From: Thermoplasmata archaeon
GTDB lineage: Archaea > Thermoplasmatota > Thermoplasmata > Lutacidiplasmatales > UBA184
Direction of reading: 5' to 3'
Length of the DNA: 64,000 nucleotides
Assembly: GCA_021798195.1 (NCBI GenBank)
Contig: JAJZYH010000002.1
Coordinates: forward strand, 1 to 64,000
A program made the translations under genes and the position numbers. Below are positions 5,298 to 58,988 of the stretch, in pieces (positions within the stretch are counted from its first letter, which is position 1; every line of letters begins with the position of its first letter). Under the pieces are notes generated by a model. That model worked only from the letters and a program-made list of their open reading frames with translations. It searched no databases and was not told the origin of the DNA.

Positions 5298-7758
5298 CGC
5301 CCCCTCTGTCTGGGAGAGGACCGTGAAGCCCGGGTCGGAGCCCAACGGGTTCGTGCCGGCCTCGAAGTTGCGGCGCGAGGGGGCCCAAACCTCCCCCCCC
5401 AAGACCCGAGTGCGACGGCGCTCCCGCTCCCTGGGATCTCCTACCTCGAACGAGGGAGCACCCCCGCGAACGGGGGACCGGGTGCCGCTCTCGGATTTCC
5501 CGCTCCATCCAGCGCTCCGTGCTCTCCTCGAGTCTCAGGGGCTCCGGGAGCTCTACCCTCCGCAGGCCGAAGCGCTCCCTCCCATCCTGGAGGGCCGCAG
5601 CGTCGTCCTCGCCTGCCCCACCGCCTCGGGAAAGTCGCTCGTGGGCTATGTGGCCCTGGCCATGGCCGCCCTGGGAGGGCGCCGGGGGCTCTATGTGGTC
5701 CCCCTCCGCGCCCTCGCGTCGGAGAAGTACGAGGACCTCCAGGCCTTCCAGTCCCTGGGACTCAAGGTCGCCCTCACCATGGGCTCCCAGGACTTGAGCC
5801 CCCGGGAGCTCGAAAACGTGGACATCCTGGTGGCCACCAGCGAGAAGGCGGATAGCCTTCTGCGCCACCGCAGCCCCTGGATCGACACCCTGGGCGTGCT
5901 CGTGGCCGACGAGATCCATCTCCTCCGGGATCCGGACCGGGGCCCCACCCTGGAGGTCTCCCTGACGCGCCTGCGACGGCAGCGCCCGGGGCTACAGATC
6001 GTGGCGCTGTCCGCCACGGTGGCCAACTCCCACGTCCTGGCCCAATGGCTTGATGCGGTGCACGTGCAGAGCGACTTCCGCCCGGTGGTCCTGAAGCCCG
6101 GTGTGTACTTCGACGGGCGCATCGAGTTCCTCGACGGGTCCCGGAGCCTCGCGCCTCCCCCCGGGAACCCTGCGGAACGCCTGGTGCGGACCGCCATCGA
6201 GGAAGGGGGCCAGGCGCTGGTCTTCGTGAACACCCGGCGCAGCTCGGAGAGCCTCGCCGAGGCCCTGGGACCTGCCGTTTCGGCGGCGCTTCCGCCGGAA
6301 GCGCGGGAGGAGCTCGCCCGTCTCGCGGAAGACCTCACCCGGACCTCGGAGGAGGAGACGGAAGGGCTCCGCCGGCTGCGCCGCACGATCCCCTGGGGGA
6401 CCGCCTTCCACAATGCATCCCTCACCAACCCGGAGCGGAGCCTGGTGGAGAAGGCGTTCCGATCCGGCCGGATCAAGTGCGTGGTGGCCACTCCCACCTT
6501 GAGTGCCGGCATCAATCTCCCGGCGCGCCGGGTGATCATCCGGGACCTCACGCGGTACGACGACTCCGCGGGGCTCAACGTCCCGCTGCCGGTCCTCGAG
6601 GTCCATCAGATGTGCGGCCGGGCCGGCCGACCACGGTACGATCCTTACGGGGAGGCGGTCCTCATGGCGCGCTCCTCGGACGAGGCTCAGTCGCTGGTGG
6701 AACGCTATCTCGAGGCCCCCCCGGAACCGGTGGAGAGCCGGCTCGCATCGGCCGCGGTCCTCCGGACCCACCTCCTCGCCCTCGTGGCTTCCCGGGAAGT
6801 CTCGGACCGCCCCGAACTGGAACGATTCCTGGGGGAGACCCTCTATGGACACACGTTCTCGGTCCCCGAGATCCAGCATCACCTTGTGGAGGCCGAGTCG
6901 TTCCTCCGCCGCAACGGCCTCCTGGAGGACACGGCCTCCCCGCGGCTCCGGGCCACGCTGTTCGGACGGCTGACCTCCGACCTGTATCTGGACCCGGTGT
7001 CCGCCGTGATCCTGCGCCGGGCGCTGGAACGCGCCCGCTCCTCCCCCGAGATGGTGGACGACCTTTCCCTGCTCGCCACGGTGGCCGCCACCCCGGACCT
7101 GGCTCCGTTCTACCTCCGCCAGGGAGAGGAGAGGGACCTCACGGACCTCTACCTGGACCGCCGGGGGGCGTTCCTGGTCCAGCCGCAGGAGGAGCCCGGG
7201 GAACTCGACATGGAGACCTTCCTGGGGACCCTCAAGACCGCGAGGGTCCTCGAGGCATGGACGGATGACCGGCAGCGCCTGCTGGACATCACGGAGCGCC
7301 ACGGAGTGAGCGCGGGAGACCTCCGGGCGAAGGTGGAACGGGCGGAATGGCTCCTCTCGTCCATGGCCCAGCTGGCCCGGACCGAATGTCGCCCTCTGGC
7401 ACGTCCGCTGGATGAGCTCGCGGTCCGGGTCCGATACGGCGTCCGCCGGGAGCTCCTGGAGCTGGTGGAGCTCCGGGGGATCGGGCGGGTGCGCAGCCGC
7501 CTGCTCCACGGAGCCGGCTTCACCTCGCTGGAGAAGATTCGCCGGGCATCGGAGGCGGAACTGGTGGCCTGCCTGGGGTCGGAGACCCTGGCCCGGGACG
7601 TCCTGGCCCAGGTCCGGGGAGTCCGGAAACCCCCGGCCCGATCGGGGAACCCGGAGGAGAGAGGGCCGTCCACGGCTCCGCCGGAACGGCCGGGGGATCC
7701 CTCTCCCCCCCGGGGGGGATCGCTCCGCTCCCTGGACCACTACCCATCCTCGGATTGA
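5284..7758 (+). CDS. hel308: Ski2-like DNA helicase Hel308
   Basis: ACPTASGKSLVGYVAL (Walker A), VLVADEIHLL (DEIH), ALSATVANS, TPTLSAGINLPARRVIIRD, QMCGRAGRPRYD; C-terminal HhH-like LRGIGRVRSRLLHGAG. True start may lie downstream of 5284. Confidence 0.88.
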   Translation: MHLHSAPSVWERTVKPGSEPNGFVPASKLRREGAQTSPPKTRVRRRSRSLGSPTSNEGAPPRTGDRVPLSDFPLHPALRALLESQGLRELYPPQAEALPPILEGRSVVLACPTASGKSLVGYVALAMAALGGRRGLYVVPLRALASEKYEDLQAFQSLGLKVALTMGSQDLSPRELENVDILVATSEKADSLLRHRSPWIDTLGVLVADEIHLLRDPDRGPTLEVSLTRLRRQRPGLQIVALSATVANSHVLAQWLDAVHVQSDFRPVVLKPGVYFDGRIEFLDGSRSLAPPPGNPAERLVRTAIEEGGQALVFVNTRRSSESLAEALGPAVSAALPPEAREELARLAEDLTRTSEEETEGLRRLRRTIPWGTAFHNASLTNPERSLVEKAFRSGRIKCVVATPTLSAGINLPARRVIIRDLTRYDDSAGLNVPLPVLEVHQMCGRAGRPRYDPYGEAVLMARSSDEAQSLVERYLEAPPEPVESRLASAAVLRTHLLALVASREVSDRPELERFLGETLYGHTFSVPEIQHHLVEAESFLRRNGLLEDTASPRLRATLFGRLTSDLYLDPVSAVILRRALERARSSPEMVDDLSLLATVAATPDLAPFYLRQGEERDLTDLYLDRRGAFLVQPQEEPGELDMETFLGTLKTARVLEAWTDDRQRLLDITERHGVSAGDLRAKVERAEWLLSSMAQLARTECRPLARPLDELAVRVRYGVRRELLELVELRGIGRVRSRLLHGAGFTSLEKIRRASEAELVACLGSETLARDVLAQVRGVRKPPARSGNPEERGPSTAPPERPGDPSPPRGGSLRSLDHYPSSD

Positions 7759-58562: not shown

Positions 58563-58833
58563 CGGACTTCTCCACCCGAAGGGACCCACTTTGTACCTAT
58601 TTGAGCGAACCCTCCGTTTCCCATCCGGACTTGAAAGTGGTCATCCGCACCTCTGACCCATTCCCTTGTCCTCCCCCCTCCTCATCCCAACGTCCCCCAG
58701 GAAGCCCCCGGAACGATTTGGGACTCCGAAGGGGCGTCCCTTCTTCCAAGGTCAACTTTTCTTGGGAATGTTCTGGGACCCGGACGTGGCCATTCTACCC
58801 TTCCCCAAGTTCCCCACGGCAAGAATGGTATGA

Positions 58834-58939
58834 CGCCCGTGCTGGGATTCGAACCCAGGTCTGAGGCTCCGCAGGCCCCTAGGATAATCCATTGTAGCGA
58901 AGGCGGGTGGTTCCGCTTCCGTAGCTACCCCACACGGGC
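58834..58939 (-). tRNA. tRNA-Arg(GCG) with ~30-nt insertion in the D-loop region
   Basis: Minus strand: acceptor GCCCGTG/CACGGGC, anticodon stem GGGGC/GCCTC around loop CTGCGGA (anticodon GCG at 58870-58872), T arm CTGGG-TTCGAAT-CCCAG, D-stem-like GGGT...ATCC separated by extra sequence; TATA-like element upstream. Confidence 0.8.
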
Positions 58940-58980: not shown

Positions 58981-58988
58981 CTATAAAA
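58981..58988 (-). promoter_or_regulatory. TATA box candidate for tRNA-Arg
   Basis: Minus-strand GTTTTATAG ~42 nt upstream of the mature tRNA 5' end. Confidence 0.45.

Follow-up and report, generated by a model that had tools for sequence, protein, structure and literature searches.

Non-canonical tRNA introns with a bulge-helix-bulge (BHB) core have been described in Thermoproteales, other Crenarchaeota, Thaumarchaeota and ARMAN, where they occupy D-loop or T-loop sites, form a 4-bp helix with 3-nt bulges and leave a restored mature tRNA on removal. Reviews link such introns to broad-specificity splicing endonucleases, equipped with special loops or built from two subunits (PMC4033280, PMC6379350, PMC12397907), and euryarchaeal introns have been portrayed as few and canonical (PMC4090602). 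Enzymes of the (alpha-beta)2 and epsilon2 types are reported to remove relaxed motifs efficiently; the single-chain endonucleases of A. fulgidus and T. acidophilum have a narrow rating, and the M. kandleri enzyme, which is without both loops, is rated constrained broad (PMC6379350). Another source holds homodimeric endonucleases to be able to cut BHL-like motifs (PMC8707768) and, set against the narrow rating, this leaves the literature divided.

The locus described here, an interrupted tRNA-Arg(GCG) gene in a window of 64,000 nucleotides (the whole stretch of DNA analysed), shares the helix, bulges, type of site and restored tRNA of these introns. It differs in belonging to Thermoplasmatota and in the accompanying endonuclease, a tandem single-chain enzyme lacking CSL, with no gene for a second subunit found. 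The canonical euryarchaeal intron at 37/38 follows the same BHB rule, and the geometry is copied by introns at 59/60 in the same genome (central helix H formed by 54-57, bulge at 58-59 with the predicted cut after 59). In contrast to the canonical intron, the tRNA-Arg(GCG) insert lies in the D-loop and lacks the outer exon helix. Like the relaxed BHL and HBh' motifs, the D-loop precursor combines a 4-bp helix with a 3-nt bulge and is open on its exon side; unlike them, it still allows two 3-nt bulges to be drawn. The kind of element is thus already known, whereas its lineage, scale and enzyme context appear new; no report of introns in Lutacidiplasmatales or Thermoplasmata was found within the openly readable literature. 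Since about 12 non-canonical introns occur in one genome of a large soil Thermoplasmatota lineage with neither special loops nor two subunits evident, the idea of co-evolution can be tested cleanly on this natural case, for which intronless orthologues provide natural controls.

The interrupted tRNA-Arg(GCG) gene and its relatives

Direct reading bore out the initial annotation of a minus-strand tRNA-Arg(GCG) of 106 nt with about 30 extra nucleotides in the D-loop and otherwise normal arms (Table 1). From G1 at 58939 to the discriminator G73 at 58834, only the D-arm is unusual: the acceptor stem (GCCCGTG/CACGGGC) is intact, as are the anticodon arm (GGGGC-CTGCGGA-GCCTC) and the T arm (CTGGG-TTCGAAT-CCCAG). 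The surplus amounts to 31 nt between GGGTAGCT and TGGATTATCC. As first described, it follows GGGTAGC and precedes TGGATTATCC, is flanked by GTAGC/GCTAC and contains the inner hairpin GGAAGCGG/CCGCCTTC.

Table 1. Features of the tRNA-Arg(GCG) locus; positions are those of the window, and a slash within a bulge marks the predicted cut.
Feature	Position	Strand	Basis
tRNA-Arg(GCG) gene with D-loop intron, 106 nt	58834..58939	minus	sequence, ARAGORN, relatives
Exon 1, GCCCGTGTGGGGTAGCT, positions 1-17	58923..58939	minus	sequence, relatives; predicted splice site
Predicted intron, 31 nt, ACGGAAGCGGAACCACCCGCCTTCGCTACAA, between positions 17 and 17a	58892..58922	minus	comparison; predicted splice sites
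Exon 2, TGGATTATCC... to discriminator G	58834..58891	minus	sequence, relatives
Anticodon GCG	58870..58872	minus	sequence, ARAGORN
Central helix H, 5' strand GUAG (G12-G15)	58925..58928	minus	paired in 75/75
Central helix H, 3' strand CUAC, in intron	58894..58897	minus	pair counts
5' bulge C16 U17 / A, cut after second base	58922..58924	minus	relatives; cut predicted from BHB rule
3' bulge A A / U, cut after second base	58891..58893	minus	relatives; cut predicted
Inner intron helix h', 5' strand CGGAAGCGG	58913..58921	minus	two-sided changes in 8/9 pairs across relatives
Inner intron helix h', 3' strand CCGCCUUCG	58898..58906	minus	pair counts
TATA-box-like TTTTATAG, 42-49 nt upstream of G1	58981..58988	minus	sequence; putative function

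Standard searches recover the gene poorly. The Rfam tRNA model scores it at 22.7 bits, below the cut-off of 29; it appears in the whole-genome search only as a weak partial match, and the whole window gives no Rfam match at the gathering threshold. ARAGORN reports from the genomic sequence only a shortened 74-nt form (58905..58832). A second, intact tRNA-Arg(GCG), which would have pointed to a pseudogene, was not found by searches of the source genome (a draft of 1.75 Mb, 96% complete), where the interrupted gene is the sole match. Archaea need this tRNA to read CGU and CGC codons, and it is essential to the uncultured soil archaeon from which the genome derives.

Altogether 75 distinct genes carry the insert, almost all of them in the family of the window, which we take to lie within Candidatus Lutacidiplasmatales (Thermoplasmatota), and conservation extends across at least seven genera. 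All of these genomes are metagenome drafts, the relatives are not independent and the E-values of the home-made models are rough. Of the 48 family relatives searched, nearly all have an interrupted tRNA-Arg(GCG), and the pattern of the interrupted gene matched 82 stretches in named genomes, nearly all Thermoplasmata, including UBA184 and Candidatus Lutacidiplasma silvani AcS3-62. A D-loop intron, at first considered less usual for Thermoplasmatota, is the norm within this family and is also found in other Thermoplasmata. Exon 1 is identical in 71 of the 75 genes and exon 2 is near-invariant, with two columns below 95% identity; the insert differs in sequence and length and retains its pairing. 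Intronless orthologues exist and read GGGGTAGCTTGGATATCC at the D-arm. Two loci of another family in the same order (f2; L080 and L081) carry a tRNA-Arg(GCG) that has no D-loop insert and has one in the anticodon loop.

The upstream flank with the TATA-box-like TTTTATAG recurs in a genome of another genus (G018, 7% contamination), contig 133 of which holds a 98% identical copy of the tRNA together with this flank (L032/L091). The identity ends directly after the tRNA, and the copy may reflect contamination or transfer.

Proposed precursor structure, splice register and alternative readings

The locus very probably represents a functional tRNA-Arg(GCG) gene whose 31-nt D-loop BHB intron is removed by the splicing endonuclease and RtcB. 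In the proposed precursor, exon bases G12-G15 (GUAG) would pair with CUAC at the 3' end of the intron, leaving 3-nt bulges CU/A and AN/U and an inner intron hairpin. Cleavage by the tandem endonuclease would follow the second base in both bulges, and RtcB would ligate the exons into a 75-nt tRNA with D-loop AGCUUGGAUUA, releasing G12 for pairing in the D-stem. We infer the cutting, the joining and the exact splice sites from sequence comparison, and the case for splicing is strong because the tRNA is essential and its exons are tightly constrained. Conservation in at least seven genera, covariation, intronless orthologues and the presence of endonuclease and RtcB genes all support the reading of the insert as a non-canonical intron with which the work began.

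Helix H can be formed in all 75 genes, the exon GUAG facing CUAC, CUGC or CUAU in the intron, and lies between 3-nt bulges as in archaeal BHB introns. Across this D-loop set 91.3% of pairs are formed, compared with 81.6% after shuffling, and just 38-54% of cells pair when partners are slid by one to three columns. The inner helix is maintained by compensating changes: both sides differ in 101 cells where 38 are expected, a count reached in none of 500 shuffles, and the first six inner-helix pairs are formed in 373 of 450 cells compared with 279 (maximum 305) when the halves are re-dealt among sequences. Covariation therefore holds the pairing together here, as it does in the T-loop introns considered below. 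RNAalifold recovers the same helices unaided as the consensus fold of the set. For the window gene alone the lowest-energy fold lacks the BHB, though the ensemble contains it, with a pair probability of ~0.78 for H. The motif had been called relaxed; the bulges are in fact exact, and the sole departure from a strict hBHBh' is the missing outer exon helix beside the 3' bulge. G11 cannot pair with G18 in the precursor, and its D-stem partner lies several bases off.

Two splice registers are compatible with the sequences of the family itself. In the alternative, GUAGC/GCUAC would form a 5-bp helix with bulge UA/C and the mature tRNA would be 76 nt. This register pairs in every own-family gene, is the one drawn by RNAalifold and was preferred at first. 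The register is decided by introns that share this core and occur in other families (f3, f13 and f24 in tRNA-Arg(GCG); f9, f24 and f28 in tRNA-His, tRNA-Pro and tRNA-Arg(CCG)), which fit a 4-bp helix with bulges C16 N17/A and AN/U: this pairs in 13 of 14 out-of-family D-loop introns and the 5-bp helix in six, C16 being unable to pair in that way in the other eight, and on this count the 5-bp register was dropped. The one exception, L317, came from the phylum-wide pattern search, belongs to another class, has an unpaired inner helix and is probably not an intron of this kind. The 4-bp register also leaves the varying bulge bases (A/T, and any base at N) on the intron side and the invariant ones in the exons, whereas the longer helix would place the variable A/T of the 5' bulge within the exon. 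ARAGORN scores the form spliced in the 4-bp register at 120.5, the other register at 113.6 and the unspliced gene at 103.5; removal would restore a standard 75-nt tRNA-Arg(gcg) with predicted junction GGGGTAGCT^TGGATTATCC and D-loop AGCUUGGAUUA. Its predicted D-arm, GGGGUAGCUUGGAUUAUCC, matches the GGGGTAGCTTGGATATCC of the intronless orthologues except for one U. Cutting in the 5-bp register is accordingly improbable, and of the GTAGC/GCTAC complement noted initially the GUAG/CUAC pairs stand, the fifth being replaced by a pair directly after the 5' bulge.

Retention of the insert, so that the mature tRNA would bear an enlarged D-loop hairpin, is very unlikely. The insert does fold into a stable hairpin, but the conserved GUAG/CUAC pairing would then hold G12 and U13 outside the D-stem, there would be no reason for 3-nt bulges that vary solely on the intron side, and both the intronless orthologues and the analogous T-loop inserts in nine further tRNAs of this genome speak against it. 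That the gene is missed or shortened by standard tools might suggest a pseudogene or disabled copy; with exons near-invariant over 75 genes, every arm paired rather than decayed, no redundant tRNA-Arg(GCG) found in the genome and CGU/CGC codons that require it, this is scarcely credible. Removal independent of the splicing endonuclease, for instance by self-splicing, draws on just the narrow reputation of single-chain archaeal endonucleases and is likewise extremely unlikely: 31 nt is far below the size of a group I or II core, Rfam gives no match at the gathering threshold and the geometry of the BHB core is exact.

Further D-loop and T-loop introns in the lineage

The tRNA-Arg(GCG) intron would belong to a larger group of introns, sited in D-loops and T-loops, by which Candidatus Lutacidiplasmatales is characterised. 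Weak tRNA matches in the source genome revealed at least nine T-loop introns at 59/60 with BHB geometry (L180-L186, L030, L229), inserted after TTCRAA in Arg(TCG), Arg(TCT), Ser(GCT), Ser(GGA), Gln(CTG), Asp(GTC), Lys(TTT), Ala(GGC) and His(GTG). The T-stem is followed by H at 54-57, a 5' bulge A58 A59/N and a 3' bulge NN/U60, so that the strict hBHBh' form is present in these nine genes and in about 50 in relatives, where Glu(CTC), Gly(TCC), Ser(CGA) and Asn(GTT) are also interrupted. An A57-G mismatch is frequent in H. Base 57 of the exon covaries with the intron base that it faces, which is C in 15 of 16 cases for G57 and in 2 of 44 for A57 (Fisher p = 4e-11, for relatives that are not independent). 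Pairs of the inner helix form in 420 of 480 cells, compared with 249 when halves are re-dealt. A search model built from eight of these T-loop introns gave 2-9 matches per genome among the family members listed, one or two in each of only ten genomes outside the family among those listed, and none in the three same-order genomes outside the family. T-loop introns typify the family and are uncommon in the rest of the class.

Two further D-loop inserts were found in the source genome, in Lys(TTT) and in Leu(TAG) (L183, minus strand). Searches that were non-exhaustive, and whose counts are therefore minima, give at least ~40 tRNA genes and at least ~12 non-canonical introns in 11 genes. Default tRNA tools miss or under-score most of the nine genes with T-loop introns; since the tools run here miss or shorten such tRNAs, tRNA counts in genomes of this kind may be too low.

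The tRNA-Lys(TTT) gene (L186; G000 contig 47, 1012-1150) carries a D-loop insert and a T-loop intron together. The former can be drawn as a BHB at 20/21 whose helix, UUCG/CGGA, has the UUCG motif of the T-loop introns, perhaps through intron transposition. In another Thermoplasmata family (f9; L311, L312, L313 and L315), tRNA-Arg(CCG) has both a D-loop intron and a T-loop insert.

Splicing endonuclease and ligase

The genome holds one RtcB ligase gene alongside its endonuclease. PF01974 was detected in 47 of 49 family genomes as two stretches each, both on one chain in the reading frames examined, and the PF01974 search of the family genomes found no separate second endonuclease subunit; the only splicing endonuclease of the genome is a single-chain tandem enzyme, encoded on the minus strand of G000 contig 44 at 5555-6331. 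The initial annotation had proposed to look for a splicing endonuclease of broad BHB specificity; one of the crenarchaeal kind is not encoded, to judge from profile alignment: the profile aligns without gaps to the A. fulgidus and M. jannaschii enzymes at the CSL site, whereas the CSL-inserted A. fulgidus chimera 3p1y requires a 6-residue insertion there, and CSL with its conserved lysine is absent.

The best profile and predicted-fold matches are the M. kandleri endonuclease (5x89) and the A. fulgidus alpha'2 enzyme (1rlv, 2gjw). The predicted structure (pLDDT 90, pTM 0.85) matches the M. kandleri fused enzyme with a TM score of 0.86, A. fulgidus with 0.80 and ARMAN-2 with 0.59. Compared with epsilon2 enzymes at the level of domains and overall fold, two PF01974 stretches stand against a three-unit chain and ARMAN-2 is the weaker fold match; no ARMAN-type loop (ASL, 11 residues, Tyr-Lys) was noticed at that level. 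The M. kandleri enzyme is (alpha-beta)2, 5x89 being a fusion of its subunits, and the A. fulgidus enzyme is rated narrow, whereas in Lutacidiplasmatales both halves lie in one gene and the genome is rich in non-canonical introns. As single-chain tandem enzymes are reported to be narrow, this genome would be an exception worth testing. We lean towards the view that a single-chain tandem endonuclease without CSL processes both the D-loop introns that have no outer helix and the mismatched T-loop introns, which would represent a lineage-wide gain without the loops or two-gene enzyme presumed to be needed. The first half of the endonuclease reading frame (L061/L187) retains a degenerate catalytic region.
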